Shown: in pieces, positions 12,159-29,740 of the stretch
Layout of the letters: the number at the start of each line of letters is the position of its first letter
Position numbering within the stretch: the stretch's first letter is position 1
NCBI GenBank assembly: GCA_021847065.1
Contig: JAJZVR010000006.1
Coordinates: forward strand, 1 to 37,372
Direction: 5' to 3'
Source of the DNA: Planctomycetota bacterium
Lineage (GTDB): Bacteria; Planctomycetota; Phycisphaerae; WQYP01
DNA: 37,372 bases
Made by a program: the position numbers and the translations under genes
Notes under the pieces: model-generated
What the model saw: only the letters and a program-made list of their open reading frames with translations
What the model was told of the DNA's origin: nothing
Databases searched by the model: none

Positions 12159-12339
12159 GATATTACTCCGCCTGCCGGTGACTCATAAATATGCCTGAAC
12201 CCAAACAAGTGAACCGCTGTCTTGTACCGTGCGTCCAAGCGCCGACACGATCAACCATGATCCGAGAATACTTCCGTGCACTTTCATCAACGATATTAAG
12301 GCAGATACCGTGCGTCACAAGCACCTCCATCATTAAGGT

Positions 12340-12369
12340 GAAATTTTATACCAATTTCGGAAATATTTC
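12340..12369. promoter_or_regulatory. Cluster of GAAAT/ATTTC half-sites, possible operator
   Basis: GAAAT at 12340, ATTTC at 12354 and a perfect ten-base palindrome GAAATATTTC at 12360-12369, overlapping the sulfatase stop codon and lying about 180-210 bases before the GH31-like start. The half-site is shared with the palindrome at 17938-17954. The rest of 12159-12339 shows no gene. Regulatory function is inferred. Confidence 0.35.
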
Positions 12370-13837
12370 AAACACACGTCTGCAAACGTGTGCGGTGGGT
12401 CCGGCGGAGGCTGTCCGCCCAGTTCCGGCGGCCTGTTTTCTCCAGGCGCGCCAGGTAAGCTGGAAGCTCTCCATGCACATGTAATCCGCCACCCTCGGCA
12501 AGAACGGTCCACATGGGATCGATTCCGGTAACGGAGGTACGCATCATTTCGGCATGCCAGAATTTCAATATCTCGGCGGCGGAAGCGACGAGTTCCGGGT
12601 GGTTTGGCGCCAAGTCGTGCTGTTCATGCGGATCGGTCTTGACGTCGAAAAGCATGGCATCAGGATAGCCGTGAAAGGCGTCATGATATGTACGAATATA
12701 CAGATGGTCCTGGAAGCGGACACCCCGCTGGCAGGCCCACGCGCCTTGTGAAATAATAAGGGACTCACGGCCTTGCGACAGACCCTGACGCAAGGCCTCT
12801 GCAAAGCTCCGCGCATCCCAATTGCAGGGTGTCTGTTGTTGGATTAGTTCGGTGATAGTCGCGGCAATATCCACAAGGTAATGCAGCGCGTGGTCTTTAC
12901 GCCCGGAGGGAAGGCCCGGCCATCGCATGATTAACGGCACTCGGCATGTACAGTGGTCCGCAGTCTGATGATCGCCATAGACATTCAACTCGCCGAGATT
13001 CTCCCCATGATCCGCCGAGATTATTACCGCCGTATCATCAAGTATTTGCCGATCGGCCAAAGTATTGAGCAGCCGGCCGATCCATTCATCGGCGTAACGA
13101 ACGCCGCAGTCGTAGCCGTCAAACATCGCGCGCACATCATCCATGCCGGCCATGCGCGCCGGCTGACGCGGATACTGCGGATCCGGTTCAGGGCTGAAGC
13201 CATTGACCTCCTGGGCGGAATGCGGGCCGGCCATTTGCCAGTGTTCAGCGCGAATCATCTCGTTGAGCCACGCGGGTAATGGTGTATCGACAAAAGGATT
13301 TCCGAAATTCTCCGGCGTGCGATAAGGCGTGTGTGGATCCCACAGGTTGACATGCAGAAACCAGTTCTCGTGTTGACCATACCGCATGAGCCACCGGGTG
13401 GCATGCGGTATGATTTCATCGGCGCACTCAAGGCCGTTGGCGCCCGTATTGGTGATATCGTTGAAATTCGCGTACCAGTGCCATGCGGAATGACGCTCGC
13501 CAAATGGGCTTACCGTAGCAGTTCGATAACCAGCCTGGCGGAACAAACGCATCCAGTTGGTCCGCGCATAGTCGGAGGCGAATCCGCGACGGCTTCCCTC
13601 AGAAAATAATTCCGCCGCCGCTCCGCCATGGTTAATTATACCGTTGTGAATTCCAAACCGGCCGCTCCATAATGCCGTGCGGCTTGGCAGGCATGGCGCA
13701 TCGGACGTGTAGACGTTGTCAAAAATCACTCCTTGCCGGGCGATACGGTCTATATTTGGACTGGTGTGACGGTGGTAGCCATAGCACCCGAGGTGGTCCG
13801 GGCGCAGTGAGTCGATGTCAATGTAAAGAATTCGCAT
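12368..13837 (-). CDS. Type I (formylglycine-dependent) sulfatase, no signal peptide
   Basis: A 489-residue S1-family sulfatase. N-terminal metal-binding block [19 protein letters not shown]; the sulfatase signature [13 protein letters not shown] places the residue converted to formylglycine at Cys49 (C-x-P-S-R). [10 protein letters not shown] and [13 protein letters not shown] supply further active-site His/Asp residues. GAGGAAG lies six bases before the ATG. Unlike most polysaccharide sulfatases it begins directly with the catalytic domain, so it should be cytoplasmic and act on small imported sulfated saccharides. That also requires a formylglycine-generating enzyme acting in the cytoplasm, not found in this window. 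It is 51 bases from the transporter gene on the same strand, so the two probably share a transcript. The exact substrate is unknown. Confidence 0.9.
12373..12392 (-). terminator. Stem-loop at the end of the sulfatase gene
   Basis: CACACGT and ACGTGTG are exact complements with a six-base loop, covering the last sense codons of the sulfatase. On the minus strand TTTGAAATATTTCC follows, only weakly T-rich, so it may be a partial terminator or chance. Confidence 0.3.
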
Positions 13838-13888
13838 TCATAACTTCCTCGTCAATGAGAACAACCCGCACATCAGCAAGACGCGCGG

Positions 13889-15319
13889 TCACGGAGTCTC
13901 CGGGGGAACGTAGTTGTCCGGCCCGCCAAGTCGCCGCCAACCGCGATATACCATGAGCATCAATACGGCTGCAGCAGCATATAAGACCGTGCATAGCGCG
14001 AAGATCATACGAAAGTTGTGCGCCCAGTCCATGAAGCTACCCAGCAGATAGCTGGTTACCACGAGGCTACCGTAACCCAGGACGTTAAGACCGGACGAGA
14101 ATTGACCGAATTTGTCGCCGGGGAACAGGAGCATCATCACGGCGATCCAACCGAGCATCCACCCGACGGTGGGCGGGATAATCAATACCGCATATATCAG
14201 CCAGGTGGTCTTGCTCTGCACACAGAAGTAGGCCAAACCGGTCAAAATAGCGCCGCTGAACAGGGAGGCTAATACGACGTGAAACGCGTTGAATTTCTCG
14301 CACAGGTAACCCATGGGAATATAGAGTACCGCCGAGGCCAGACTGCTCCAGGCAAAGACCTTGCCGATCGCGTCCGCGTCCAGGCCGAGGGTTTTCTCGC
14401 CAAAGAGCACCATAAAGGAAATCGCCGGCGAGGTTACCAGAATCATCAGTGTGAACGCGATGAAAAAGTTGCGGTACAAGGGGATGGAAAGGCATTCCAG
14501 GAAATATACGCCGTAGGTCTTAATGAAATTCTTCCGATTTTCGTGCGGCGGAGGGGGTGGATAACCGCCTTCCTTGACCCGCCAGCACATCAGGAGAAAC
14601 GAGACCATGTATACCAAGCCAATGCTCCAGAACAACACTTTTGGATACGCAACGACATATTGGAACAGCCAGAATTGCAGGACAAATGCGCCAAGCGTTC
14701 CGACCACGCGGAACCAGGCGAGAAACCGAGGCATCAGCGATTGCGGCACCACATCGCGCAGCAGAAAGTAATAACTGTTGACCAGCACCATATTGAAGAA
14801 ATGAAACATGACAACGAACACCGTTAGAACAGCCAGCACGGTGACCGTCAGCGAGACCGACAGTGGAAGTATTTTGTCCGCGTGCAGCCATGCTCCTATA
14901 TTGGGGGCGTATCCGATAAGCACCAGGGCGGTGACGGTAAGCGGCGTTGACCAGAGCAGGAAGGGGATGCGCCGCCCGATGCGGCTGCGATAACGATCAG
15001 TCCATATACTGATATTTGGCAGGAACAGCAGATTCACCATCCCCGCTGTGCCTCCGGTTACCACAGCGATGGTGGTGTCGTCGGCGTGGAGTCGCTGCAT
15101 GTACACCGGCATGAACATGAAGAATATCGTCTGAAAAAGCATCCAGCAGAAATCGCCCGCCAGCAACCACAGGAATAAAAAGACCAGTTGCCGGACCGTA
15201 TATTCCAGGGTACCAACGCGGTAAGTTTTCCCCGGCTTGCCACCGGTCTCGTCCGTGGGCCATTGTGATCCGCCATCTGCGGCCAGATTTGACGCGGATT
15301 CACCGATTTGTTCGGGCAT
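13889..15319 (-). CDS. MFS sugar transporter (GPH/SLC45-like)
   Basis: A 476-residue membrane protein with about twelve helices. The start at 15319 (MPEQIGES) is chosen because GGAG lies six bases upstream; the longer TTG start at 15331 would contain this ribosome binding site. The loop between helices 2 and 3 reads SIWTDRYRSRIGRRIPFLLW, matching the D-R-x-x-x-x-x-G-R-R-x-P-F signature of GPH and sucrose-type glycoside carriers. A central cytoplasmic loop (WRVKEGGYPPPPPHENRKN) separates two six-helix halves. Placed between the F5/8-domain hydrolase and the sulfatase, it is the likely importer of the saccharide handled by this locus. Whether it is a proton or sodium symporter cannot be told. 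Confidence 0.85.
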   Translation of the reverse strand: MPEQIGESASNLAADGGSQWPTDETGGKPGKTYRVGTLEYTVRQLVFLFLWLLAGDFCWMLFQTIFFMFMPVYMQRLHADDTTIAVVTGGTAGMVNLLFLPNISIWTDRYRSRIGRRIPFLLWSTPLTVTALVLIGYAPNIGAWLHADKILPLSVSLTVTVLAVLTVFVVMFHFFNMVLVNSYYFLLRDVVPQSLMPRFLAWFRVVGTLGAFVLQFWLFQYVVAYPKVLFWSIGLVYMVSFLLMCWRVKEGGYPPPPPHENRKNFIKTYGVYFLECLSIPLYRNFFIAFTLMILVTSPAISFMVLFGEKTLGLDADAIGKVFAWSSLASAVLYIPMGYLCEKFNAFHVVLASLFSGAILTGLAYFCVQSKTTWLIYAVLIIPPTVGWMLGWIAVMMLLFPGDKFGQFSSGLNVLGYGSLVVTSYLLGSFMDWAHNFRMIFALCTVLYAAAAVLMLMVYRGWRRLGGPDNYVPPETP

Positions 15320-15367
15320 TATTTTCTCCAAAATCCCGCCAATAGGTTAACGGCACCCGCCGGGGCG

Positions 15368-17914
15368 TCACGGCCGAGCCTTAAGACCGTATATCTGCAT
15401 TTCATAGATCGAATAACCCCATCCTGTGCCGCGCTGGATGCCGAGCATCCGCACATATCGCGCTCTGACCGGCCGGGGCAGCATAATTGTCGACACGCCA
15501 CCGGTGCCCGTGCTGGTATGGTACACGGTACGCCAGGAATCCGGTGCGCCAGGCGAGTTGGACACCTGAATCGCAAATTTCCTCGCATAGGCCGAGTTCC
15601 AGTAGATCACGATAGTCTGGATACGCTGCGACTTGCCGAGATTTACACATATCCACTGATGATCGCTGTATTGCGAACTCCAGCGCGTATGCATGTTGCC
15701 GTCAAATGCGTTTTCCGGCGGATACTTGCTGTTCTCCACCGAGGACGAAAAGGCGGGTTTCTTCAATGCCAAGTTCGGCCCCATGTCCGGCTGGGCCATC
15801 CAGAAGCGCATTGCCGCGATCTTGCTGCGCAGCCTCGTGACCTCCCGGGCCCGTGATGACTGGTCATGCCAGACGACCTGCTGATCGCCACAGATATTGA
15901 AATTCGTGGGGAAACCGCGGATGAGCTTTAAAAGCCGGACGTCGTTGGCGATTTCATCTTTTACCACGGGCGTGAATTGCCGGCGAATCACAGCGGAATC
16001 CAGCGGCCGCGCCCGGTTGCGGTGCAGTATGCCGATGCAGCGGATGTAGTTGTACTGCGAATGTAGAATCAGACCATACAGTGTGGTCCAGCGGTACATG
16101 GACTCAATACGCCCATGCACCTTTGTCGGCATCGGTTTGCTTAACAGCGGCTTGAGTTCGGAATCCGCCGCCAGTACGCGCGAAGCGACGTAACCGAAAT
16201 TCCTGGCAGCCGATTTGTGGAACTGGTAGGCGTCTTTCTGTTTCAGGCACCCGCGCGATGCCAGTGACCGCGGTGTCAATGGGAGGCGATAAGGGCCAAA
16301 TGCCGTGAAAACCGCCATCCGCTGAAACCAACTGTAAATATGTAATCCATTTTGATTGTAGGGCGGCATTTTATCCGGTGGCACGTATAACGGTGCTGTA
16401 GTCACTACGGCCTTGTCCAAACTGCCCCAGAACCGCAGTACCGCAGGTGCCAGCGTCTTTCCAAAATCCCGCTGTGCGACGGCCTCCAGGACGGGATCGG
16501 GATGGGCGGCGCTGAACGGGTGCTTTTGCCGCAGTCCGGCCTTGGTCGGTTGCCATATCATCCGGTCAATGACCTCCAGATTCGGCTGATAAACCCAGCC
16601 TTCGCAACCGGACCACCAGAGGGCGAAATTTCTCACCTTGTGGGAGTACAATTTCCATATCTTATATTGCGCAACAAACGGCAACGGGAAGCCTATGGTC
16701 GGGCTGATACTTTCACAGTCGCCTGAAGCCGAGACAAGGGAAATGTAGTTCGGCCCGTATACGCTGTGGCCGTCGGCCTTGACCGCCAAAGCCGCCTTGT
16801 TGTAGTTATTGAGCTTAATCAACCAATCATCGGCGTTGCCGTGCTCGTTGTAGATCAGTCCATAACCCCGACGGGCCAATGACAGCATGTAGCTCTCGGT
16901 ACTTCGATTTCCACCCAGATTCAGGTGCCACGGCCATAATGCCACGATGATATGTCTTTTCCCGGCGGCTTGTTTGATGATCCGCAGTACCCGGCGCACG
17001 GCTTGCCAGCGCGTATGGGAATACGGTTTGCCGCCGACGACTGATATGCTTTTGCGCCCGGGCGATCCGTTATAGTCGGCAAATACGCCGTAGACAATGG
17101 TCGTCCCCCGATGCTTGCGAAACAGCGTGCGGTAAGCGTGCAGATACAACGCCGCTCCGCGGGGATTAAACGGATCCACGACCTTGCGGTGTTTACTTGG
17201 CGAAACGTAGTAGATCGCTGAAGCATTCCTGGGATTCTTAAACCAAGCCGGATCCTTTGGCGGAAGTCGCTGCTCGATCATAAGTCCCAGGCCGTATTGC
17301 TTGCGCAGCCGATACGGGATGGGCGGCCCCATCTTCTCTCCCCACACAACATTGATATAGTGATGGGCGTAATAGGAGGCTTGATCCCGGTTCGTCCATC
17401 CCGGTGGCGGCGGCTGGCTGCGGCGGTTGTTGCCGATGCGATAGTAGAAGGCCGGGGCCTCCGCCTGATCCAGATTCCCAACCGACGCGGTGCGCAGGTC
17501 TTCAAACCGAAACACGCCGTCCATGGCTCCTTTCGGCGTTTCACCGACGATCCAGAAAATCCCGCCGCGACACACGAATTGATAGCTTTCCGGCGCATGA
17601 GCCTTGAGCTTGAACGGCGCGGATTTGGACTCGGCCGCAATCAAGGCATTATCCGCGGCAGTACCGATGATAATGGCATGGGATGCCGGTATTTTCGCGG
17701 AATCCGGCGATAATAATGCGCGATGGATTTCAATGTTGAAGCGGCGCTTCAGGAATCCGGTAAGATCGCGCGCAGCGGTTTGCTCCACGATATTGGAGCC
17801 GACAATGACTTTCCACAAATTTGTGATCCTAATCGGCGCGGCCATGGACTGATTAGCGAAGACCGTAAGGGAACAAAGGGCCAATAAACCGGCCACAACA
17901 CGTCTGATCATCAT
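15368..17914 (-). CDS. Secreted glycoside hydrolase-like protein with C-terminal F5/8 type C domain
   Basis: An 848-residue protein. Signal peptide at residues 1-26 (RRVVAGLLALCSLTVFANQSMAA). Residues about 35-150 resemble the N-terminal alpha/beta domain before the catalytic barrel of GH20, GH67 and GH115 enzymes (RDLTGFLKRRF, HAIIIGTAADN, GGIFWIVGETPKGAMDGVFRFED). A long central region follows with barrel-like strands (YINVVWGEK, HIIVALWPWHLNLGG, GYGLIYNEHG). The last 140 residues are a discoidin/CBM32-like sandwich (NLALKKPAFSSS, FDGNMHTRWSSQ, RARYVRMLG). The central region is not assignable to a family with confidence, so its substrate is open. AAGGA lies seven bases before the first ATG and the palindrome 17938-17954 just upstream. 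First gene of the set running to 8905. Confidence 0.75.
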   Translation of the reverse strand: MMIRRVVAGLLALCSLTVFANQSMAAPIRITNLWKVIVGSNIVEQTAARDLTGFLKRRFNIEIHRALLSPDSAKIPASHAIIIGTAADNALIAAESKSAPFKLKAHAPESYQFVCRGGIFWIVGETPKGAMDGVFRFEDLRTASVGNLDQAEAPAFYYRIGNNRRSQPPPPGWTNRDQASYYAHHYINVVWGEKMGPPIPYRLRKQYGLGLMIEQRLPPKDPAWFKNPRNASAIYYVSPSKHRKVVDPFNPRGAALYLHAYRTLFRKHRGTTIVYGVFADYNGSPGRKSISVVGGKPYSHTRWQAVRRVLRIIKQAAGKRHIIVALWPWHLNLGGNRSTESYMLSLARRGYGLIYNEHGNADDWLIKLNNYNKAALAVKADGHSVYGPNYISLVSASGDCESISPTIGFPLPFVAQYKIWKLYSHKVRNFALWWSGCEGWVYQPNLEVIDRMIWQPTKAGLRQKHPFSAAHPDPVLEAVAQRDFGKTLAPAVLRFWGSLDKAVVTTAPLYVPPDKMPPYNQNGLHIYSWFQRMAVFTAFGPYRLPLTPRSLASRGCLKQKDAYQFHKSAARNFGYVASRVLAADSELKPLLSKPMPTKVHGRIESMYRWTTLYGLILHSQYNYIRCIGILHRNRARPLDSAVIRRQFTPVVKDEIANDVRLLKLIRGFPTNFNICGDQQVVWHDQSSRAREVTRLRSKIAAMRFWMAQPDMGPNLALKKPAFSSSVENSKYPPENAFDGNMHTRWSSQYSDHQWICVNLGKSQRIQTIVIYWNSAYARKFAIQVSNSPGAPDSWRTVYHTSTGTGGVSTIMLPRPVRARYVRMLGIQRGTGWGYSIYEMQIYGLKARP

Positions 17915-17937
17915 TACGAAATCCTTAATACAACCAA

Positions 17938-17954
17938 CGGGAAATAATTTCCCG
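17938..17954. promoter_or_regulatory. Perfect 17-base palindrome, candidate operator
   Basis: CGGGAAAT-A-ATTTCCCG, eight-base arms around one A, 24 bases upstream of the 848-residue hydrolase start codon. Its position before the first gene of a five-gene minus-strand set, and related GAAAT/ATTTC sites before other enzymes of the locus, suggest a repressor-binding site. The regulator is not proven; the LacI-type gene at 24162 is the obvious candidate. The rest of 17915-18085 holds no gene that I can support. Confidence 0.5.
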
Positions 17955-18085
17955 ATATCATTCTATCTTGTTTAGGGCCGGCGCATCTTTAACTTCGGGG
18001 TTTACGACTGCTATACCGGCCAAACGTCCGCGGGTTTCCACCGCGTGGATGCATGGATGCCGCAGAGTCATACTTGCTCCGGTCC

Positions 18086-20176
18086 TTAGCCAATTCCCCT
18101 TCTTTTGGCGGACTGCTTCATCAGTCCGACCGACAGCAACGCGGCACCGAGCATCACCAAAGAAGCTGGTTCCGGAACCGGCGAAGCCGCCATCATTGTT
18201 GCCCAGCTATTTCCAATGAGGAAATTGGAAAACAGATTGCTGTCGCCATTCTGCATCGCCCAGGCTTCCATGCCTAACGTTTGAAAGGATGTCAACGCGT
18301 CGGCAGTATTTGTACCCAGCGAGGCCACCGCCATGGGGGAGAAGAAATCGCCGGATGAGGGATTCACCCACAGGGCCATGCGGTCAAACGGTCCGGTGCT
18401 TACGGCCGTGCTCTTGAAGAGAAATGCCACAATATAGTATACCTTTCCCTTCTGAATGCTTCCACCGGCGGATGCGGCCGTGCTGTTCGCATCGGTCTGC
18501 ACAAAAAACTCATTGCCGGTACCGCCGGTTCCATTAATTCCCACGCGCGGGCCATTGGAATTTCCAAGCCACACAAACAGTTGCTTGCCCGCGGCCATGG
18601 TGGACCCGCCGCCCGAATTGGCCGCATTGCTGTATAGGAAACTTACGAAAACGCCATTACCATTCTGCGGTGAGGCAAGGTTCCGCGATATAACCGTCGG
18701 GTTGTACATGGCGTTGGTCAGTTGCACGGCCTGGTGGGCCATCATAAGGCCGCCACCCGAAATTTGATAAGACATCGGCGTCGTGGGCGTGACCACGTTG
18801 ACCTTGGTGGTGTCTATATTAACAGCCCATGAGCTGCCGGGTGCCCAGCCCGTCCCGCCGGCTTGGCCATTAAGCTCTCCGCCTGTGTTCGTGTTGAGAT
18901 AGGCGGACGTCAGAACCGCCGGCTGAACCGTCGCCGGTCCCGATGTGTTCATGATATTATTGAGAATATTCTGCTTATACTGGTCTACGGTGGTCCAGTC
19001 ATTCTGCAGCAAACCACCGGTGTCACCGCTGTTGGGATTGACATCCCAAAACGTCCAGTAAAGATTGTTGCTCTTGATGTAGCTGGTCAGGGCATTAATC
19101 CATTGCAGCTCCGCCGTGGACGAACCTGCGTCATTTTGCGGGCCGCCAAACTCGCCCACCCAGACCGGCGCAATATTGTCCTTGGAAATGTAGCCCCATT
19201 CCTGATTCCAGTAGGCCGGAAGATTATTCGGATAATTCGCGGCATTAAACCACGGCTGATTATATACCTCCGGACCATAATCATGCGGCGAATAAACGAC
19301 CTGATTGGGAACATTGAGTTCCACCGGGGCGGTGGCGACCCCCTTCAAATCTCCACCCCACCAAGCACTACCGGTCGTGCCATTTTGACTTTGAACCCCC
19401 TCAACGCCTATTAACAGATGCGGATTAACGGCTTGGATTGCATTGCCGGCTTGTTCGGCCGCCAGCCGCCAATCCGTCGCCGGATTGCCGGTGCCCCATG
19501 TCGTCGGGTTGTGGGGTTCATTATGAAGATCAAAGCCGATAACGGTGGGATTATTCTTATAACGTGTAGCCAAGGTGGTGAGGTCACTGACCCATTGCGT
19601 TGTGGTCAGATCCGGGGTGTTGGTACTGCCGGGATATTGTGGATTGGTATACCAGAGCGGTGACTGGCCGCTGGCGTCCGGGCGATGCTGATCCAGGATA
19701 ACTTTCATGCCGTAAGAGCCGGCGGAGTTTATCAACTGATCCAGACACTGCAGCGAAGTCAGGCCCTGGAGGTTCTGATTCATCGGTCCGTTAGTGCCAT
19801 AGTAACTGATGCCATTGGGCATGGTATTGGGATCCTGCACGATCGTGTCACAATAGGGAATCCGCAACAGGTTATATCCCAGGCCGGACAAGGTTTTCAG
19901 GACACTGTTCATGGACACCTGCCACAAACCGTTCACCACGTAATTGGCTGTCTCAAATCCAAACCAGTTGATGCCGTTGAACGTGGCGGTCGTGCTGGCA
20001 TTTGGGCCAGTGCTCTCGACAATCCGATTTCCGCTGGTGCCATACCAGCCGTTGTAGGTGATCGCGTCAGGGCCGGTTGTGGCGGTGGTGGTGGCAGCGC
20101 TGGCCCACGTCTGAGCGGAAACCACGGCCATGGCTGCCACCGCAAGGATGGAATATCTGTTTTTTGCGTACTTCAT
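18086..20176 (-). CDS. Secreted GH5 endoglycanase (cellulase/mannanase type) with PEP-CTERM tail
   Basis: The start at 20176 is favoured by GGAGG nine bases upstream, giving 696 residues; a longer frame to 20281 lacks such support. Signal peptide 1-27 (AVAAMAVVSAQTWASA). The GH5 domain spans about 30-410: LLRIPYCD, VILDQHRPD, acid/base in FDLHNEP (Glu220), YSPHDYGP, nucleophile in VWVGEFGG (Glu342) and YWTFWDVNP. Residues about 430-660 form a beta-rich sandwich module, concanavalin-like in appearance. The C-terminus VPEP, hydrophobic helix and KRRG is a PEP-CTERM sorting signal. It would cut beta-1,4-glucan or mannan while held at the surface. Subfamily and substrate are not decided by sequence reading alone. 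Confidence 0.9.
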   Translation of the reverse strand: MKYAKNRYSILAVAAMAVVSAQTWASAATTTATTGPDAITYNGWYGTSGNRIVESTGPNASTTATFNGINWFGFETANYVVNGLWQVSMNSVLKTLSGLGYNLLRIPYCDTIVQDPNTMPNGISYYGTNGPMNQNLQGLTSLQCLDQLINSAGSYGMKVILDQHRPDASGQSPLWYTNPQYPGSTNTPDLTTTQWVSDLTTLATRYKNNPTVIGFDLHNEPHNPTTWGTGNPATDWRLAAEQAGNAIQAVNPHLLIGVEGVQSQNGTTGSAWWGGDLKGVATAPVELNVPNQVVYSPHDYGPEVYNQPWFNAANYPNNLPAYWNQEWGYISKDNIAPVWVGEFGGPQNDAGSSTAELQWINALTSYIKSNNLYWTFWDVNPNSGDTGGLLQNDWTTVDQYKQNILNNIMNTSGPATVQPAVLTSAYLNTNTGGELNGQAGGTGWAPGSSWAVNIDTTKVNVVTPTTPMSYQISGGGLMMAHQAVQLTNAMYNPTVISRNLASPQNGNGVFVSFLYSNAANSGGGSTMAAGKQLFVWLGNSNGPRVGINGTGGTGNEFFVQTDANSTAASAGGSIQKGKVYYIVAFLFKSTAVSTGPFDRMALWVNPSSGDFFSPMAVASLGTNTADALTSFQTLGMEAWAMQNGDSNLFSNFLIGNSWATMMAASPVPEPASLVMLGAALLSVGLMKQSAKRRGIG

Positions 20177-20207
20177 TGTCTTGATCCTCCAAATTGTTTT
20201 ATCAATT

Positions 20208-20217
20208 AAATTATTTC
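20208..20217. promoter_or_regulatory. GAAATAATTT site before the PEP-CTERM GH5 gene
   Basis: On the minus strand GAAATAATTT, identical to the ten-base core of the palindrome at 17938-17954, lies about 31 bases before the GH5 start codon. The right arm is not fully symmetrical here. Possible operator, inferred. Confidence 0.3.
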
Positions 20218-20326
20218 TGATGGAACATTGGAAAAAAACACCGCAATTCCTTGAGCCGACCGATATTTCCAACGCTCGCACTATGCGCCAATCTTTATCC
20301 GGTTCGATCCCAGGGGTTTGAGAAAG

Positions 20327-20366
20327 AAAAGGGAGGCTACCGCCTACTACTGGGTACCTCCCTTTT
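20327..20366 (-). terminator. Rho-independent terminator of the PEP-CTERM gene
   Basis: AAAAGGGAGG (20327-20336) and CCTCCCTTTT (20357-20366) are exact complements, extended inward by TACC/GGTA across a one-base bulge. On the minus strand it lies 16 bases after the stop codon at 20383 and ends in TTTTCTTTCTC. Confidence 0.8.
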
Positions 20367-20382
20367 CAACACGGACAATCGC

Positions 20383-21285
20383 TCACGCCCGAGCGAATCG
20401 CCGTTTGAGAATCAGTAAACCAAACCCCGCAATGCCCATCAGGGGAAGCACCGCCGGTTCGGGCACTGGGCTGGCCACGCCACTGATGGCAAATACCCCT
20501 GTTTGCGCACCGCCACTGTTAAATGTGATGCCGGTGATTGGCGTAGTAGCCTCAACACCGCTCAATGCCACGTCGGTCTCATAAAGCCCAAAGGTATGAC
20601 CGCCGGTGGTGGGGCTGGCACCGCTATCATAGCGATCGAAACCGTTCGGAACTGCTTCCGATGCTATGCCCGTCCCATTACCCCAATCCGGCGCGCTAAA
20701 GGTAAACGCGCTAGAGGAGGTTCCATTAGCAAAGTTGACCACGAACGTTCCGGATGTCGTGGATGAAGCATTCGCGCTGGTTGCGAGAATCGCCAGGGAA
20801 CTGTATGCCGTCGGAGTGCTCAATGTGAGCGTTCCCGGCGCGCCAAGCCCGGTCGTGGAATTGTAAAGATACAGAACATTGTTGGTTCCAACATAGCCGG
20901 CACTACTGCTGCCGGTAACCAGTGTATCCTGAAGTTGGAACGTTGTGTTGCCACCGGTGACCGTATTGGTCGCGGCACTGACAAAAGTGTTCGTGCCGGT
21001 ATCCGCGGTTGGCAGTCCTTTGGTATCGTTTGCGAACCCGCTGCCAAAAAATAGTGTGGAACTACCATTGTAACCGTTACCGAAGCTAACTGTTCCAGCG
21101 GTTGTCACTGCTGCGGGTCCGGTCGAGTTGGCATTCGGAGACAGAATCGAATCTTGATTCCAGCCGGTGGCCGTAATCGGTGTGGGAGCCATGCTCGCAC
21201 CGGCGACACCGGCGAAAGCCAGGCTCATAGCGGCCGCAAGCCCAAGAATACCGATAGAGGGTCGAGTTGTTTTTTCCAAGATCAT
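20383..21285 (-). CDS. Small secreted PEP-CTERM protein with a beta-sandwich domain
   Basis: A 300-residue protein with a signal peptide (about 10-31, SIGILGLAAAMSLAFAGVAGAS), a Ser/Thr/Gly/Asn-rich body and a PEP-CTERM tail (VPEPAVLPLMGIAGFGLLIL then KRRFARA). GGGAG seven bases before the ATG supports the start. The segment SSLAILATSANASSTTSGTF, then VVNFANGTSSSAFTFS and DW, follows the pattern of the four C-terminal repeats of the GH8 protein at 25283-29071 (VTILATAVNG, TGTFTITYTDG, ITDW). So it is probably a stand-alone version of that module. No catalytic motif. Role may be carbohydrate binding or surface layer; unknown. Confidence 0.8.
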   Translation of the reverse strand: MILEKTTRPSIGILGLAAAMSLAFAGVAGASMAPTPITATGWNQDSILSPNANSTGPAAVTTAGTVSFGNGYNGSSTLFFGSGFANDTKGLPTADTGTNTFVSAATNTVTGGNTTFQLQDTLVTGSSSAGYVGTNNVLYLYNSTTGLGAPGTLTLSTPTAYSSLAILATSANASSTTSGTFVVNFANGTSSSAFTFSAPDWGNGTGIASEAVPNGFDRYDSGASPTTGGHTFGLYETDVALSGVEATTPITGITFNSGGAQTGVFAISGVASPVPEPAVLPLMGIAGFGLLILKRRFARA

Positions 21286-21423
21286 AAATGATCTCCCTAT
21301 TTAAGTTAACAAAATAATCAATCAAAATACAAAACATTTAGGGAAGTTCTTAAATATTGTGAAAATCATGTCCTCCTTTCTATCGGGTTGCCGTTTCATT
21401 TTTCCGATCCTTTCGCTTCAGAG

Positions 21424-21478
21424 TAGCCATCGGCATCAGCCTCACATCACTTCCGGCGACGAGAAGACCCGATGGCTA
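21424..21478. repeat. Inverted repeat, 10-bp arms, after the pseudopilin gene
   Basis: TAGCCATCGG (21424-21433) and CCGATGGCTA (21469-21478) are exact complements separated by 35 bases, just beyond the pseudopilin stop at 21488. No T-run follows on either side, so it is not a classic terminator; it may protect the mRNA end. Confidence 0.45.
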
Positions 21479-21487
21479 ATCGGATCC

Positions 21488-22369
21488 TCATGGGGGACTG
21501 GGGCGAAAGTTCTTGTAAGTGAGATTGGTTTGTATGGCGGTGCCGCCCGATCCACTGGTCACAGTATATTGGAATGTCGAAACGGATAAATCGGCCATCA
21601 GCGAATTGAGTTGATGTGTCGTACCCGTTCCATGCCGCCAACGCAGATAACTTCCCGCGGGCCAATTTGCTCCGTTCTGATCCGGCCCGGGGGCCACAGG
21701 CGTGTTATTGTCGGTCTGACTCGATCCTGGCGAATAATATTGCCAGATATTTGGGCATGTGAACAGCATTCCCCACATTAAGCTGGCGCTGGACTCGCCA
21801 TCTTGGGTATAGCGGGCGGAGTCAGTGATCATCGCCACCTGGTGCGCACGGGCCGCGTGCATATACGACAGCCGGTACCAATGTGATGGGGTGATCCACC
21901 CGGCCGTCGCAGTCCATGACTCATAAAACAGGTAAGGATTGACCGCGTAGCCGCGTTGTGTGCCAGGGGGCAGACCGCTGACGATCTGCTCGGCCGGGCA
22001 TTGAAAAATGCCGGAAATCTGCGGATAACCCGGGTATGGGTTCCGTAAGACGGAGACCGACAGCGAATTGGCCTCAATTTCATTCTGCAGCGACTCCCAC
22101 CACTGCGCATAATAGGTGTTGGGGGATATATAGTTGTAATCAGCCGATGGGATCGTGTCTTGGTATTGGTCGGCATAGATCGCGGTAAGGATACCAAGCT
22201 GCCGCAGGTTTGATTTACAGGAGACGCTTAGCGCGGCTTTACGCGCCATCGCCAGTGCCGGCAGGAGCAGCGCTATAAGCACCGCGATAATCGAGATTAC
22301 CACCAGCAACTCAATGAGCGTGAATGCTGATTTTCCACGCGTTCGTTCCAACCAACTCTTGGTAGTCAT
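21488..22369 (-). CDS. DUF1559-type pseudopilin-like protein with prepilin cleavage motif
   Basis: A 293-residue protein whose N-terminus reads [28 protein letters not shown] (residues 13-40, in two parts [12 protein letters not shown] and [15 protein letters not shown]), a type IV prepilin/pseudopilin signal with the conserved Glu at +5 and a membrane helix. CKSNLRQLG follows, as in the large DUF1559 families of planctomycetes and lentisphaerae. The C-terminal [20 protein letters not shown] block matches their H-x9-DG-type box, here with MAD rather than ADG. GGAG lies ten bases before the ATG. These proteins are thought to be exported by a type II secretion/pilus machine. Its place among surface enzymes suggests a role in holding or taking up polysaccharide, which is inference. 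Confidence 0.88.
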
Positions 22370-22465
22370 GATGAAAAATCTCCAATATTTCTGTCCGCAT
22401 TTACATTCAGTGTTTCAAACTGCGGCGACAGATCCGCAATAGGATACACATGTTTTAGGCCTCTT

Positions 22466-23686
22466 TTACCTTCCGACGGCGATGGATACCGACCCAGGCT
22501 CGCGGGGCATCCGCAAACCAAGAGCCTTCACAATCGCACGATCCGGTATAATTTGATCGCCTTGCCGCTTGACCAGATGGAAACCACCGCAGTAATCCCA
22601 CATGGTCCATCCTATGTGATAGCGTTCAAAAGCAATTCTTACGTCGTGAATCCAATCCGCACGCGATCGCGGCGGAGCGTATTTTGCAAACACACCAAAC
22701 TCATCACAGATCAACGGGACCTTGTATTTTCGTCCCCATGCCGCAGCCTTGGCGATAGCATCGTTAATCCTTCGGCCATTCCATCGTTGCCGCCCATACT
22801 TAAGAATAATGCTCCGCGCCGCTGGATTTTCCACTCGTGCGGCAATAGGTGCCACGATTTTGGGACTTGACGGGTACGGCAGGCCCCGTATGAATTTCCA
22901 CGGCGGATAGGCCCATTGTGCCCCCTGCTGCGCAAACGCTCCAGGCTGGTAAAAGTGAAAATTGTATACAATATCAGAATACGGAAGGGGCTTGAGTCGG
23001 CAGAGTTGCCGTATGCTCGACCAGCGCGTCCCGGTAGCGATTATCGTAAAATTCGGGGCGCTTTTGCGAATCGCCTCCACGACGCGGAGTTGTATCGCCT
23101 CCCACGCCCGCAGGCGCGGCGCGGTGGGTTCGTTGAGCACTTCTAAAAACACACGGTTCGGATTAAACCGATACGCCAGATTCGCGGCCAGCAATCCCCA
23201 TAATCGCACGAGCGCGTTTTGTGTTGATCTATTCGCGGCCAGCGATTTTGTAAACGCGTGATCGGGATGAATATCGACAATTACAGCCAGATCGTGGGCG
23301 AGAACAAGGCGTATTGCTGCATCGAATTCCCGGAGGCGCCTGGGTGGGATTGAAATCACACCATGTTCTTGCAAGCGAAAAAACTTGCGCGGATTAACCG
23401 GGATGCGCACATGATCCATTCCCATCTCATGGATCAGGCTAATATCCCGTGCGGTGATATAGCTACGAACATGTTCCGCGGTGTCACCGGAACCATAAAC
23501 CTGTGAGAACCAGCCGCTTAAATTAACGCCACGAAGCAGATGCCGCAGGCGCTGCGCGGGAACCCCGCCACTAGCCCGATCCACTGCTCCGGCGGCATGA
23601 GAATTTGACGGCCGGGCAACCATGGCCAGCAGGAAAATCAGCCCCGCCAACCACATCCATAATTTTAATTTTAACATCATAGTCAT
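22466..23686 (-). CDS. Secreted GH5 endoglycanase
   Basis: The reading frame is open up to 23824, but the start at 23686 (MTMMLKLK) places a normal signal peptide at the N-terminus (LWMWLAGLIFLLAMVARPSNSHA), giving 406 residues. The ribosome binding site is not clear for either start. GH5 blocks: LLRGVNLSGWF, DHVRIPVNPR, AVIVDIHPDH, acid/base in EVLNEP (Glu186), YNFHFYQPG, nucleophile in ICDEFGVF (Glu329) and WTMWDYCGGF. The enzyme is a beta-1,4-glycanase, probably cellulase- or mannanase-like, without an extra module or PEP-CTERM tail, so probably free in the periplasm or outside. It is divergent from the LacI-type regulator gene. Confidence 0.88.
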   Translation of the reverse strand: MTMMLKLKLWMWLAGLIFLLAMVARPSNSHAAGAVDRASGGVPAQRLRHLLRGVNLSGWFSQVYGSGDTAEHVRSYITARDISLIHEMGMDHVRIPVNPRKFFRLQEHGVISIPPRRLREFDAAIRLVLAHDLAVIVDIHPDHAFTKSLAANRSTQNALVRLWGLLAANLAYRFNPNRVFLEVLNEPTAPRLRAWEAIQLRVVEAIRKSAPNFTIIATGTRWSSIRQLCRLKPLPYSDIVYNFHFYQPGAFAQQGAQWAYPPWKFIRGLPYPSSPKIVAPIAARVENPAARSIILKYGRQRWNGRRINDAIAKAAAWGRKYKVPLICDEFGVFAKYAPPRSRADWIHDVRIAFERYHIGWTMWDYCGGFHLVKRQGDQIIPDRAIVKALGLRMPREPGSVSIAVGR

Positions 23687-24158
23687 CAACCATTCAGTTA
23701 ATGAGGCGCGACCGCCACCCAAAATTCGATCACCCGCAAGTCGGCCCGCCACACGCAAAGCAGACTTGAGTATGAAAGCAGTCGGGCTGCGAAAATCGTC
23801 ACGATTGAAGTGTACTTTGTTCACTAGGCTGTGTCAAGCAAGACTGACATATGAGATGCGCTATGAAGGCAAAAAATAATATGTAACTACAGCATACAAA
23901 ACGACTTACAATCAATGAATATTTTTCTCATGCAATAAAATATTTTTTTATGATATTTATTATCAGCCTTAATCAGGACTGTATCGCGTCATTAAACTTT
24001 TCATTCCAGCGTCCGATGCGTGCCAGCTTACAGTGGACGCCGACGATGAAAACAGGTTCCCAACAGTTCGCGGGTGATCGGAATGATGTTCAGATTAAAC
24101 CATATCATCTATACTGCAATGGGCTTTATCGGATTGGCCGTTTTTTGGAGCACTATAT
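23687..24158. promoter_or_regulatory. Divergent AT-rich intergenic region between GH5 and regulator
   Basis: This 472-base stretch holds no supported gene. 23870-23960 is strongly AT-rich (runs such as AATAAAATATTTTTTTATG), as expected for promoters of both divergent genes. I could not fix -35/-10 boxes or an operator with confidence. Confidence 0.4.
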
Positions 24159-24161
24159 TTG

Positions 24162-25226
24162 ATGAGGCAGCGCCCTGACGACAGAATGAAGCGACGTCGT
24201 GTTAACAATCCCGGTACAACGCGCAGTGCGACTATATCGATCACGGACGTTGCCGCGATTGCAAAAGTTTCCGTCGGTACGGTTTCGCGGGTATTTAATC
24301 AAAACCCCACTGTTGACCAGGACCTGCGAAAGCGGGTACTTAAAGCGAGTCGCAATCTGGGGTTTGTTCCCAGAACCCTCCAGCGGTGCATCGGTCTGAT
24401 TACGGGGCGGGCCAGCCCGGCACTTCCCATCGGATTCGTGAGCGTCATGACGAGCTTGGTTTGGCGCTATCTGGCGGCAGAGGGTTACAGCGTTGAACTT
24501 ATCGACATTTCAAATCTGGAACATGCCTATCAGGCACACATTGAGGGCGTCATCGCCATCGTGTTTGATGAACGCATTACCCGTCTGACGGAAGTACCAA
24601 ATCTCCCGATCCTAACCATCAATCATCCTATTCCCGACCACTTTATTCACAGCGTTCGCGCCGATCATTGCCAGCAGGCGGTACTCGCCGTAAACCACTT
24701 CCTCAAATACGGCCACCAGAAGATCGGTCTAATTCAGATCGAACCTGATGAGTGGGGCAGCCGCGAACGACTTCGCGGATATCAGGAAACGTTGGCCGGG
24801 CAAGGTATTGCTTTGGACGACTCCTTGGTGCAATACAGCGCCCTGCAACCGGTTTACGACGTAGTTACCAGATGGATTCGTCACGGGGTAACCGCAATTC
24901 TGAATTTTGGTGAGGATACCAGCCTTGAAGTACTTCACATTTTGACGAATATCCTGGGGGTCAAGATCGGCGTTGATATTTCAATCATATCGCTGGAAGA
25001 TATTCCAATCTACCAGTATTTTTCTCCGCCTCAAACGACCGTGCATCAACCGCTTGAGGAACTGGCGCAACTTGCCGCAAGCCACATGATTGAACTTTGC
25101 CACTCCCGGAACGCTCAACCGAAAAAAAAGGAGATTGTCGATATTTGCCTCACCAGCACACTGATTGTGCGAGATTCCGTGGTACAATGCGTCAATCCCT
25201 CTCTCGAAATCAAGCACACATCGTGA
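24162..25226 (+). CDS. LacI-family transcriptional regulator
   Basis: About 354 residues. The N-terminal helix-turn-helix is clear: ITDVAAIAKVSVGTVSRVFNQ (split as ITDVAAIAKVSVG and TVSRVFNQ, residues about 27-47), followed by RKRVLKASRNLGFVP. A periplasmic-binding-protein-like sensor domain follows (GVIAIVFDE, ILTINHPIP, HQKIGLIQIEPDEWGSRERLRGY, DISIISLEDIPI). The hinge reads PRTLQRCIGL where LacI proteins usually have P-N-x-x-A-R-x-L, so the Leu that bends the operator is replaced. GGAG lies eight bases before a TTG (24159) and eleven before the ATG (24162), so either is possible. It probably senses a sugar released by this locus; its targets are inferred. Confidence 0.92.
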   Translation: MRQRPDDRMKRRRVNNPGTTRSATISITDVAAIAKVSVGTVSRVFNQNPTVDQDLRKRVLKASRNLGFVPRTLQRCIGLITGRASPALPIGFVSVMTSLVWRYLAAEGYSVELIDISNLEHAYQAHIEGVIAIVFDERITRLTEVPNLPILTINHPIPDHFIHSVRADHCQQAVLAVNHFLKYGHQKIGLIQIEPDEWGSRERLRGYQETLAGQGIALDDSLVQYSALQPVYDVVTRWIRHGVTAILNFGEDTSLEVLHILTNILGVKIGVDISIISLEDIPIYQYFSPPQTTVHQPLEELAQLAASHMIELCHSRNAQPKKKEIVDICLTSTLIVRDSVVQCVNPSLEIKHTS

Positions 25227-25282: not shown

Positions 25283-28200
25283 TCAACTGAACAGATCCAT
25301 CGCCAACACTTCAATGTTACTATTATTGGGCAGCGTAATGCCACTAATCGGCTTGCTGGTATCCAAAGGGATGGTCAACGCATAGAGGTAAACAGTTCCC
25401 GACTGTTGCCCTGATTGGGTATTTCGATAAGGCATTGTCGCAGCGACGGAATCTGTTCCTGAAACCGGCCCCTGTGTCCAGTCATCCACGGTCTGACTGA
25501 TCGTCTCGGTAGTGCCATCCGCATAATTAATTGTGAAATTACCGGTCTGCGCACCGTTCACCGCAGCCACCAATAAGGTGATACTGGTGAAACTTCCCGA
25601 CGGAAGCGCGATGGTCTGGCCGCCGGCCTGTACTACGTTATTCGCTCCAGCGGCTCCAATGGAATAATTCGCTTGATTGAAGAGAAGATTAGTACCCAGC
25701 AGATTAGCCGAGTAACTATCACCGTACCCATCGAGATTACCGGATTTCGTATTATTGTCAGCGGTAATTCCGTTGAGGTTGTAACTGCCGGAAAGATTTA
25801 CCGAGAGCGGGGCGGCATGTGTGTCGATCGCTAATATTTTAATATTGGAATTATCGGGTAGCGTCAGGCTCACGGCATTCTTTGTGGAATTCAACATGAG
25901 CGTATATACATAAAGGAAGGGCATTGAGTTAATCTGCCCACTGCTCCCGTTGTGATATGACATTTGCATTACCGGTGCTTGCTGTGCTTCATTTCCGGTT
26001 GCTATCCAATCAGCAAAGGCCTGAGTGATAGTCGAGGTGCTTTGATCTGAATAGGTGACAGTGAATTGCCCGCTTTGACTACCATTCACGGCCGTTCCGA
26101 TTAGGGTCAGGCTGCTATATTGACCTCCAGGCAATGCAATGGTTTGTCCGGTAGCGGCTACCACGTTATTTCCACCAATCGATCCGAACGTGTACCTTGC
26201 ACCGTTGACTGACACGCTGGAGCCAAGAGTATTGGCAGAATACGAATTGCCAAATCCATCAATATTCCCCGTCCCCGGAGCGCTGTCCGACGTGATTCCC
26301 TGAACATTGAACACCCCGCCTAAATTGACCTGCGGACTGACAGCGTAGGCATCCAACGCCAAAACGACAATATTTCCGTTGGCGGGCATCGTAACACTGG
26401 TAACCACCTTCGATGGGTTTACCTGAAGGTCAACCGCATAAAGAAACCAGTTCGCATACTGCTGGCCGGACTGTGCATTTCGGTAAGCCATATCGGATAC
26501 AACAGCATCTCCAGTTGAGCTGGCTCCAACCGACCAATCCGTTAATGTTTCGTTGAATTGCTGAGTGCTTCCGTCGGAATAATGCACAGTGAACGCACCG
26601 GATTGCAGACCATTGACCCCCGTTGCCAGAAAAACCAGATTGCTGTAATTTCCGTTGGGCATCGCAATTGATTGCCCCTTGGCCTCAATGACATTGTCAG
26701 CACCAGGGGAGCCAAGGTCGAAGGATGCCCCATTATAGTAAACCATTGATCCCAAGGCGTTTGCGGAGTAACTGTCGCCATAGCCATCAATATTTCCCAA
26801 GCTCGTCGCGTTATCTGATGTAATGCCGTTGAGATTGAAACTATTGGCCAAGCTGACATGGGTTGCGGCCAATCCATTCGAAGTCGTGCCGTTGTTAATG
26901 AAAGAACTCCCGATATCCAGAGACGGGAGAGTTAAGACATCCATTGACACCACTTTAATGTCGGGGTTATTGTGCAACGTAATGCTGCTTATAGCCTTGG
27001 TCGTTGCTACGTTAAAGGTATAGCCGTAAAGGTAGACGTTCGCATATTGTTGTCCTGACGGTGCGTTACGATAAGGCATTAAAGCCGCAACCGATGGATC
27101 TGCGGAATTCCATCCCGTGGACCAATCCGTAATAGCAGGCGAAAAGGTTTGTTGGGAACCATCGGTGTAGGTTATCGTGAACGTCCCGGTCTGCGCGCCA
27201 TTTACGGCCGTGGCCAAGATGGTGACGTTCTGAACCTGCCACTGGGGCAATGTAATCGTTTGGCCGGACGCAGTGACAACGTTATTCTGGCCGGGGGCCC
27301 CGATGGCGTATGCCCCGTTATTATATTGAATACTGGACCCAAGCAGGCTCGCGGAATAGCTATTTCCCGCGCCGTCGAGATTGCCCGGTGCAGTATTATT
27401 GTTATTCGTGATGCCGTCAAGGTTGTAATAGGGAGCGATGTTGATTTCAGTTGCTGTGGAGCTGTTCTGCAATGGAGCCGTTGAGGCAAACCCCAGGCTC
27501 AACGGATTAATCATGTAGCCGCTCGTAAAAAGTGTGCCGAGCACAGCCAGCGCTCCGTTATAGTAATCTCCCTGAAAAATTTTCAGATTTTCGTTCCAGA
27601 AGGAATTCTGCACGCTGGTGTTGGTGGTAAAGGCCATCGTACAGGCGGCTGGTGCAACGAATGCGTCATTATGATATTGCCCTATGACCGAGCCGTTGAG
27701 CTGGTATCCATCTACGATGTTGGGGGCACCGATCTGCTGAAAGAACGCTTGCAGCTTTTGCACCTGGCTGAGAGCCTGGGGATCGCCGTACCACGCTGCA
27801 TCCACGGAAAGCCGCCACGCCATGCGTGTCGCGTCATAACGGTAATTGTAATCGTAGCCACTGGCCGGGGTACCTGCGGCCGTGCTCCAGTCCGGGAGCA
27901 ACCCGGTTGAATTGGCTGCCGAATTTGCGTCTATATTGGCGATAATCTTCAAGGTTTCAGCGAGAACGAGATTCCACCGATTATCACCCGTAAATTGTGC
28001 AAAGACATGGTAATAGGCTGGATTGAAATAGGATGGATCGGTAACACTCGATCCGCCCCACCATCCCGGCTTCAATACGTAGGTGTTTGGTTCCACATCG
28101 AGAGCCATGATTCGATTAATCATGGCACGAGCTTGCTGACCGTATCCCCCCCAGCGCTTGTCGGCCACAATCAGGGCGAACGCCATGTCCTGATCGGCGT

Positions 28201-29071
28201 CGGTTGCCTGCCCGGAGCCTCCATTCGCCGTGGTTCCGTTGGAATTGATCTCCCAGTTCATTAAGCCTTGGGCATTACCGCTTTGCGCGTCCATATGCAA
28301 TTGGGCGTAACCCCAGAGTTGGTTAAAAGTGCTTTGATCGCCCATATACGCCGAAAGCAGCATGCCATAGCCTATACCTTCCGAGACGGTATTACTCCCA
28401 CCTACTCGCAGATAGCCATCTGCCCCGGCACTTGTGATGTTGTTGGCTTTCCAGAGATTGTATTCGGAAACCAGAGCGCTGAGTCCAGCGGATTTGCTCG
28501 GTGCCACCATTGATCCGTAGGCATAGGGACTGATCGCATATAACTGGCTTTGCGGAATTATTTCCTGGGCAGTGGAAGCGCTCGACCATGAAAGCTGTAT
28601 GAGAGAGTTTCCAGTGTTCTGGAAATATTCCAAGATGAGATCATATTGTTGCCCGGCAGCGAGATTGATCGTGCCGCTGTCCTGCGTTGAGGAGTGGTTG
28701 CTCCAATCATTAATTAATTCACTGCCATTGACCCACATCCGTACGCCGTCGTCGCTTTGAGTGTAAAAGGTGTACGTTTGGCTGTATTGAGCCTCCACTT
28801 GCCCAGTCCATTCAACGGAGAATTGTGTGGAGGGGACGCCGGGCGCGGGCGAAGCTCCGCTCCAACTAAAATTAACAGTAGCGTCTGTGCGCGTCACCAC
28901 CGGAGATGTAAGATTCATGCTGTTGTAATAGGTGCCGGTCAGGCCTGTCCCTGAAAGCAGAAGACGCGGCTCCAAAACCTCGAAGCATGGCGATACCCGT
29001 TGCGGACGCCGTGGCTGACGCTTTTCCCCAGATTTCCTCAATCCAGCAAGACGCGTGAAAATATTCCTCAT
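25283..29071 (-). CDS. Giant exported GH8 endoglucanase with PA14 domain and four C-terminal repeats
   Basis: Start at 29071 (MRNIFTRLAG), with AGGAG seven bases upstream; 1262 residues. The N-terminus has basic residues and then FEVLEPRLLLSG (30-41), the planctomycete export-associated motif. PA14 domain about 42-175 (TGTYYNS, FYTQSDDGVRMWVNG). GH8 catalytic domain about 180-525: proton donor Glu231 in VSEGIGYGM, ATDADQDMAFALIVADKRW fitting the GH8 signature (Asp291 and Asp293), and YRYDATRMAW (Asp413). Then four repeats of about 180 residues, each with a (D/N)GIT..., GNxDGxGxSYSA, AxGQxIxLP and TGxFTxxYxDG...DW pattern. GH8 enzymes cut beta-1,4-glucan, chitosan or xylan. The repeats probably bind carbohydrate or form a stalk. 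A promoter with an overlapping half-palindrome precedes it. Confidence 0.92.
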   Translation of the reverse strand: MRNIFTRLAGLRKSGEKRQPRRPQRVSPCFEVLEPRLLLSGTGLTGTYYNSMNLTSPVVTRTDATVNFSWSGASPAPGVPSTQFSVEWTGQVEAQYSQTYTFYTQSDDGVRMWVNGSELINDWSNHSSTQDSGTINLAAGQQYDLILEYFQNTGNSLIQLSWSSASTAQEIIPQSQLYAISPYAYGSMVAPSKSAGLSALVSEYNLWKANNITSAGADGYLRVGGSNTVSEGIGYGMLLSAYMGDQSTFNQLWGYAQLHMDAQSGNAQGLMNWEINSNGTTANGGSGQATDADQDMAFALIVADKRWGGYGQQARAMINRIMALDVEPNTYVLKPGWWGGSSVTDPSYFNPAYYHVFAQFTGDNRWNLVLAETLKIIANIDANSAANSTGLLPDWSTAAGTPASGYDYNYRYDATRMAWRLSVDAAWYGDPQALSQVQKLQAFFQQIGAPNIVDGYQLNGSVIGQYHNDAFVAPAACTMAFTTNTSVQNSFWNENLKIFQGDYYNGALAVLGTLFTSGYMINPLSLGFASTAPLQNSSTATEINIAPYYNLDGITNNNNTAPGNLDGAGNSYSASLLGSSIQYNNGAYAIGAPGQNNVVTASGQTITLPQWQVQNVTILATAVNGAQTGTFTITYTDGSQQTFSPAITDWSTGWNSADPSVAALMPYRNAPSGQQYANVYLYGYTFNVATTKAISSITLHNNPDIKVVSMDVLTLPSLDIGSSFINNGTTSNGLAATHVSLANSFNLNGITSDNATSLGNIDGYGDSYSANALGSMVYYNGASFDLGSPGADNVIEAKGQSIAMPNGNYSNLVFLATGVNGLQSGAFTVHYSDGSTQQFNETLTDWSVGASSTGDAVVSDMAYRNAQSGQQYANWFLYAVDLQVNPSKVVTSVTMPANGNIVVLALDAYAVSPQVNLGGVFNVQGITSDSAPGTGNIDGFGNSYSANTLGSSVSVNGARYTFGSIGGNNVVAATGQTIALPGGQYSSLTLIGTAVNGSQSGQFTVTYSDQSTSTITQAFADWIATGNEAQQAPVMQMSYHNGSSGQINSMPFLYVYTLMLNSTKNAVSLTLPDNSNIKILAIDTHAAPLSVNLSGSYNLNGITADNNTKSGNLDGYGDSYSANLLGTNLLFNQANYSIGAAGANNVVQAGGQTIALPSGSFTSITLLVAAVNGAQTGNFTINYADGTTETISQTVDDWTQGPVSGTDSVAATMPYRNTQSGQQSGTVYLYALTIPLDTSKPISGITLPNNSNIEVLAMDLFS

Positions 29072-29176
29072 GGATAGACTCCTCAAAAAATACCTTACTT
29101 AACTACTACTGAACCGTCTACAGAATAGCGGACTATATAATTTGCTAAACAACTGCCACCATACTTTTTCAAGTTC

Positions 29177-29205
29177 ATTTTAATATGAAAAATTTCAAAT
29201 GTCAA
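29177..29205 (-). promoter_or_regulatory. Sigma-70-like promoter of the GH8 gene
   Basis: On the minus strand TTGACA (29205-29200), a 17-base spacer, then TAAAAT (29182-29177), about 105 bases before the start codon. The spacer contains GAAATTTTTC, resembling the GAAAT/ATTTC sites seen before other enzymes of the locus, a position where a repressor would block RNA polymerase. Confidence 0.6.
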
Positions 29206-29740
29206 GAGAATTATTCACATAGCAGCTGTGACGAATTGCCCTGCGGGTTCTCCGGCGAGCCGGCGTCGCGGTGCAGAGGGCAGTCACTGGGGCGCAGCAG
29301 ACCGCTGCTCGTCGGGATAGGACACGCGAGTTCAACGAGGGACGAACGAAGCGGATTCGGTTTGGTTTGCGACGCATGATGTAACGCGGGCCTTGGTCGG
29401 GGAGCACTTCCGCGAGTTTCCTCCGTTATGTGCCGCAGGTGCGTCTTGGTTTCGTTCACCGTCAGTTTTAGCTTCCCCATCATGCTCCGCATTTCCGCCA
29501 TCGCCGTTTCGGCTCTGGATCGGCAGCAGATCACGAAGTCGTCCGGATAGTTGACAATGTACGCCCCCAGCCGCCGCCGGTGGCCCAGCTTCCGCCATAG
29601 GCATGGGCTAGTACGTCTTTCCGGTACACCTTGTCATACAACGCATGGAACCGCTGCGTGGGAGAATCCTTCGCTTTGGCATGCAACGTCGCCTGCAGCT
29701 TCTGAACACGGTATGGAGTTGTTAGACTCATTTCTGGCCA
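29200..29740 (-). pseudogene. Group II intron reverse transcriptase/maturase remnant
   Basis: From 29731 downward the minus strand encodes MSLTTPYRVQKLQATLHAKAKD, then RFHALYDKVYRKDVLAHAY, the usual N-terminus of intron-encoded proteins. At about 29565 it jumps, in another frame, to LGAYIVNYPDDFVICCRSRAE, then MGKLKLTVNETKT, part of the palm domain. The YADD catalytic box is changed to YPDD and roughly 200 residues between the two blocks are missing, so it is inactive. After HITEET the text is degenerate. 29741-29970 has the look of intron leader sequence (it ends in AGGAG before the ATG), but ribozyme domains were not verified and no domain V was found at the 3' side. Nothing supported was seen in 29971-30056. 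Confidence 0.8.

Follow-up and report, generated by a model that had tools for sequence, protein, structure and literature searches.

One gene in the window (the whole 37,372-nucleotide stretch that was analyzed, from contig JAJZVR010000006.1 of the Planctomycetota bacterium assembly GCA_021847065.1) encodes a protein in which a leader, a PA14 domain and a GH8 catalytic domain are followed by four copies, R1 to R4, of a 173-residue domain. Large modular GH8 proteins are already known, and the repeat module is an unnamed, widespread domain that is at most a candidate CBM family. Judged from its sequence, the protein may be an exported CelA-type endoglucanase in which PA14 and the repeats are non-catalytic modules, the repeats binding glycan weakly and multivalently, a reading to which we give about an even chance of being right.

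Domain architecture and the GH8 catalytic domain

The order leader (LEPRLLLSG), PA14, GH8 and repeats had been proposed for this gene in a preliminary description, and it is borne out by the open reading frame, by the profiles NF012209, PF07691 and PF01270, and by alignment of the repeats. The first in-frame start is a TTG, which would give a gene spanning 25283-29086; the ATG at 29071, with GAGG upstream, fits better and yields 1262 amino acids plus a stop codon, at the very coordinates of the preliminary description (25283-29071). The features of the gene are as follows.

25283..29071, minus strand: complete LEPR-PA14-GH8-R1-R2-R3-R4 gene, 1262 amino acids (open reading frame list, ATG with GAGG upstream)
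28952..29071, minus strand: N-terminal leader, with LEPRLLLSG at residues 33-41 (NF012209, LEPR-8K, above cut-off)
28532..28951, minus strand: PA14 domain, residues about 41-180 (PF07691, E 2e-29)
27482..28531, minus strand: GH8 catalytic domain, residues about 181-530 (PF01270, E 3.1e-52; CelA 1cem, E 2.8e-85)
26930..27448, minus strand: repeat 1, residues 542-714 (repeat alignment, BLASTP)
26342..26860, minus strand: repeat 2, residues 738-910, after a 23-residue linker (repeat alignment)
25814..26332, minus strand: repeat 3, residues 914-1086, after a 3-residue linker (repeat alignment)
25286..25804, minus strand: repeat 4, residues 1090-1262, after a 3-residue linker (repeat alignment, AlphaFold pLDDT 96.7)

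At the N terminus, the LEPR-XLL leader scores 22.2 bits against a cut-off of 17 with the NCBIfam profile NF012209, and this is the single LEPR-8K match in the source genome; no classical hydrophobic signal peptide was seen in the leader segment. The protein is probably exported by way of this leader and would be either secreted or held at the surface. The PA14 domain is matched over positions 3-145 of the 147 in PF07691, and its nearest solved structures are RsgI3 and a PA14 protein. The GC content of the gene (51.2%, versus 51.6-56.7% for its neighbors) is no outlier. A viral origin was dropped, there being no BFVD match at E <= 0.001.

The catalytic domain is a full-length GH8 (positions 9-340 of the 341 in PF01270), and its closest solved structure is CelA of C. 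thermocellum (1cem), with 47% identity (159/336). Residues E231, D291 and D413 align with CelA E95, D152 and D278, and all three carboxylates are thus kept; in CelA we take Glu95 to be the proton donor, Asp278 the base and Asp152 the third active-site acid. The glutamine of 1kwf, the known E95Q mutant of CelA, stands in the E95 column of the alignment, as expected. By sequence, the domain is an intact CelA-type (GH8a) domain that is expected to be active as an inverting endo-beta-1,4-glucanase; for its substrate we infer a beta-1,4-glucan, which may be cellulose, a beta-glucan related to it, or a glucomannan. Mannan and chitosan, two of the polysaccharides that had been put forward for binding tests, are not the likeliest ones for this enzyme, given a CelA-like GH8 domain and two neighboring GH5 enzymes that both match endocellulases.

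Whereas CelA 1cem (363 residues) is a catalytic domain alone, the protein described here adds PA14 and four repeats to a catalytic domain that is 47% identical and has the same three catalytic-site acids. Other planctomycete GH8 domains in our sample are at most 40% identical to it. Among them, two planctomycete GH8-CBM2 proteins (loci L177 and L178) of 1607-1637 amino acids also carry GH8, 36% identical to the present one, within a large multidomain chain, and L178 has a leader motif, LEVRTLLA, comparable to LEPRLLLSG; their accessory modules, however, are CBM2 (in pairs), Calx-beta and cadherin-like domains, and not the repeat domain of the present protein. The statement that GH8 enzymes are usually single-domain proteins was therefore too strong. 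No second GH8 was found in the source genome.

A cellulose/beta-glucan gene cluster

The GH8-repeat gene belongs to a cellulose/beta-glucan cluster bordered by a group II intron remnant, and the neighboring features used here are the following.

18086..20281, minus strand: GH5, closest solved structure endocellulase E1 (E 1.1e-118)
22466..23824, minus strand: GH5, closest solved structure endoglucanase CelC (structure-database comparison)
24159..25226, plus strand: LacI-family regulator, convergent with the GH8-repeat gene (PF00356, PF13377)
29177..29205, minus strand: promoter-like site TTGACA-17-TAAAAT, 11/12 consensus, with the near-palindrome TTTGAAATTTTTCATA (29184-29199) inside it (consensus scan)
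29418..29719, minus strand: frameshifted remnant of a group II intron reverse transcriptase (LtrA-like), in fragments KLQ...KVYRKDVLAHAY and YPDDFVICC

To the left of the GH8-repeat gene (8905-25226) lie genes for a GH2, a sulfatase, an MFS transporter, a protein whose tail is CBM32-like and of the chitosanase type, the E1-like GH5, a PEP-CTERM protein, a pilin-like protein, the CelC-like GH5 and LacI. Because the cluster holds two endocellulase-like GH5 enzymes together with GH2, LacI and the other members, it suggests a cellulose or beta-glucan setting for the enzyme. The sulfatase is an odd member for a cluster of this type. At 15368-17914 lies a gene for an 848-residue protein of no recognized catalytic family, the C-terminal domain of which is closest to the discoidin domains of one glucanase/chitosanase (4zy9, E 1.5e-33).

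Promoter-like sites are no more numerous in the region than in shuffled sequence. Near-palindromes like TTTGAAATTTTTCATA, with up to 3 mismatches allowed, occur at 12357-12372, 22370-22385 and 29184-29199 (minus strand), at or near cluster genes; three were found versus 0.4 expected by chance, and they are possibly operators of the LacI type.

The reverse-transcriptase remnant, whose fragment KLQ...KVYRKDVLAHAY shares up to 73% identity with annotated ltrA, sits between the GH8-repeat gene and a genus-conserved block at 30.2-37.4 kb that encodes YbjQ, an amidohydrolase, two M16 peptidases and an AAA ATPase. Six contigs, belonging to five genus mates, align with this block at 74-87% DNA identity, which rules out a mis-binned contig, and an M16 peptidase encoded within it reaches 95% protein identity with genus mates. 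In each of the six contigs the similarity breaks off sharply at about 30.22-30.26 kb, so that the DNA to the left is variable within the genus. In the genus-mate DNA fetched beyond this border, no CAZyme cluster and no GH8-repeat gene were found.

The repeat domain and its relatives

The four copies make up 692 of the 1262 residues (55%), in agreement with the earlier statement that they account for more than half of the protein. That there are four of them also stands, but the unit is 173 residues long, not 180, with starts spaced 196, 176 and 176 residues apart. In protein, any two copies align without gaps at 43-54% identity, and the match of R4 to R1 (93 of 173 residues identical, BLASTP E 8e-62) is far beyond chance. 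At the DNA level the copies are only 57-63% identical, which argues for an old duplication preserved as protein and against an assembly artifact. A maximum-likelihood tree of 82 domains, midpoint-rooted and of limited sampling, unites the four repeats in one clade (100/100), which places their duplication inside the lineage of this gene. In the same tree they group on the Chloroflexota/Streptomyces side, apart from other planctomycete copies (branches 98/89 and 100/99), and a transfer from a Chloroflexota- or Streptomyces-like source is suggested. Conserved residues of the domain include N9, D25, G62-Q63, D108-W109 and L158-P159, and their role could be purely structural; G62-Q63, D108-W109 and the N-terminal motif N-G-I...GN.DG.G.SYSA are strongly conserved across phyla.

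No full-length model for the domain was found in Pfam or NCBIfam, and none of the Pfam CBM models matched the repeats at E up to 1. An AlphaFold model of R4, computed from an alignment with 25 relatives from which five plasmid-record rows were left out, is an all-beta sandwich (mean pLDDT 96.7, pTM 0.92). A tandem model of R3-R4 keeps both folds and does not fix their relative orientation (pLDDT 89, pTM 0.66). On these models the repeats are predicted to be real folded domains. The sole convincing Foldseek match to R4 is AziU2 (7wuw, 8gs1), with E 1.8e-13, TM 0.89 and rmsd 2.0 over 175 columns, and a profile-sequence search reaches the same protein independently (E 7e-27 over about 177 profile positions; E 3.5e-26 in a second search). 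Weak Foldseek matches to CBM11 and CBM6 (TM about 0.35, E about 0.01) reflect the common beta-sandwich. AziU2, or Azi28, of Streptomyces sahachiroi has the same fold over the whole repeat domain, but it is a separate single-domain subunit of an antibiotic pathway, 19% identical, without tandem copies or a glycosidase. Its structure was solved in complex with AziU3, and AziU3/U2 works as an aziridine synthase (PMC12559475). By predicted fold, the repeats belong to an AziU2-like domain family, the likeness being one of domain only and not of aziridine function. The fold search on one repeat that the preliminary description had proposed thus led to a non-carbohydrate relative, a subunit of an aziridine synthase, which goes part of the way toward refuting the binding module that it had envisaged.

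A profile built from the four copies finds the domain in other planctomycetes and in Dictyobacter aurantiacus. It also finds it on plasmids of Streptomyces and Burkholderia, the hosts annotated there being GH92, GH3 and SGNH proteins. A broader profile gives matches in 22 further genomes out of the 392 sampled in Planctomycetota, some of them weak or partial, and in 21 of 251 sampled Chloroflexota genomes. Host domains recognized by Pfam are GH92, GH3 with PA14, GH38, glucodextranase/GH15, GH39-like and SGNH/GDSL, and further ones are peptidase-S9-like with NPCBM, PQQ propellers, and a kinase with PA14 and LRR. The domain is mostly a terminal or linker module on glycosidases, and several copies lie beside NPCBM, Ricin-B or PA14. 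The C-terminal domain of Streptomyces and Ktedonobacteria GH92, GH3 and SGNH proteins is the same domain (26-38% identity, full-length profile matches), but there it is usually a single copy, often on an exo-acting host, whereas here four copies follow an endo-type GH8. One planctomycete contig (L028:3621-9407, plus strand) has a 1929-residue frame that joins kinase, PA14, repeat domain and leucine-rich repeats.

Arrays also occur elsewhere. The Dictyobacter aurantiacus genome has 29 matches, with exactly four copies in each of five proteins of 844-912 amino acids, and other Ktedonobacteria-type proteins have arrays of three, five or six copies; these Ktedonobacteria arrays are without a recognized catalytic domain. 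The four-copy array is therefore a recurring design, found beyond the GH8-repeat gene. No other copies were found in the source genome, and other sampled members of the source's own family gave weak partial matches only, with no full-length copy. No description of the domain was found in the open-access literature on AziU2, GH92 C-terminal domains and GH8-PA14 proteins. Of the earlier suggestion of an undescribed binding or anchoring module, the undescribed accessory module holds, since no Pfam or NCBIfam model covers it and its glycosidase hosts are many; a module private to this GH8 enzyme does not, the family being large.

What the repeats may do

In the reading that we favor, the LEPR-XLL leader would mark the protein for export, the GH8 domain would cut beta-1,4-glucan by an inverting mechanism, and PA14 and the four repeats would be accessory, non-catalytic modules holding the enzyme on its substrate or on a surface, with the repeats raising local substrate or surface affinity through weak multivalent glycan binding (avidity). 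An accessory role is suggested because the domain is fused to many unrelated glycosidases, and multivalency because Ktedonobacteria repeatedly show arrays of 3-6 copies. A CBM-like role is proposed by analogy, because other planctomycete GH8 proteins have two CBM2 domains, the job of which the repeats would do here, and because a confidently predicted beta-sandwich has CBM11 and CBM6 among its weak structural neighbors. Against glycan binding, AziU2, the sole strong structural relative, serves a biosynthetic enzyme, and the domain also lies beside kinase-LRR and PQQ propellers, which need not bind glycans.

The repeats might instead form a structural stalk of beta-sandwich beads that spaces the catalytic domain from the cell surface and has no ligand, which we regard as rather unlikely. 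The linkers R2-R3 and R3-R4 of just 3 residues, the beads-on-a-string arrays of 3-6 copies without a recognized catalyst in Ktedonobacteria, and the well-folded units of loosely defined orientation in the R3-R4 model are all in line with it; yet a stalk would be of little use where a glycosidase carries one terminal copy, as is the case for many relatives, and that D108-W109, G62-Q63 and the N-terminal motif are so strongly conserved across phyla argues against it as well. That the only clear solved relative, by profile and by fold, was captured in complex with AziU3, and that the domain adjoins many unrelated catalytic domains, would fit AziU2-like protein-docking or enzyme-stabilizing domains, whose contacts would be with the catalytic domain or with a partner protein and not with polysaccharide. 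We consider this slightly less likely still, as four divergent copies exceed the needs of one catalytic domain and arrays without recognized catalysts exist. Surface repeats of the Rib/MiiA type, known from Gram-positive adhesins, are very improbable and were rejected: although both PF08428 (Rib, E 2e-8) and NF053582 (MiiA, E 2.1e-6) score above their cut-offs, Rib, aRib and MiiA matches are confined to fragments of 16-32 residues at the YxDGS hairpin, with 25 of the 76 Rib model positions aligned and 16 residues in the best stretch for MiiA. In the R4 surface protein 6s5y, too, the profile matches the hairpin only, over about 29 residues, and the whole 173-residue domain of the present protein matches AziU2 instead.

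Carried further, weak multivalent glycan binding by the repeats would allow a broader proposal, which we offer tentatively and hold to be possible without being probable, that the domain is a new CBM family, carried by GH92, GH3, GH38, GH15-type, SGNH and GH8 proteins in at least four phyla, from which AziU2 was recruited, out of a glycan-binding ancestor, into antibiotic biosynthesis. The main domain libraries searched, Pfam and NCBIfam, do not describe the module, though it occurs on many glycoside hydrolases in several phyla; with a confident fold, an alignment and a solved homolog, it can readily be named and tested. Should it bind glycans, the domain would count as a new CBM family and could serve to keep enzymes on plant biomass; should it not, it would show how a single beta-sandwich is put to use beside enzymes as different as glycosidases and an aziridine synthase.
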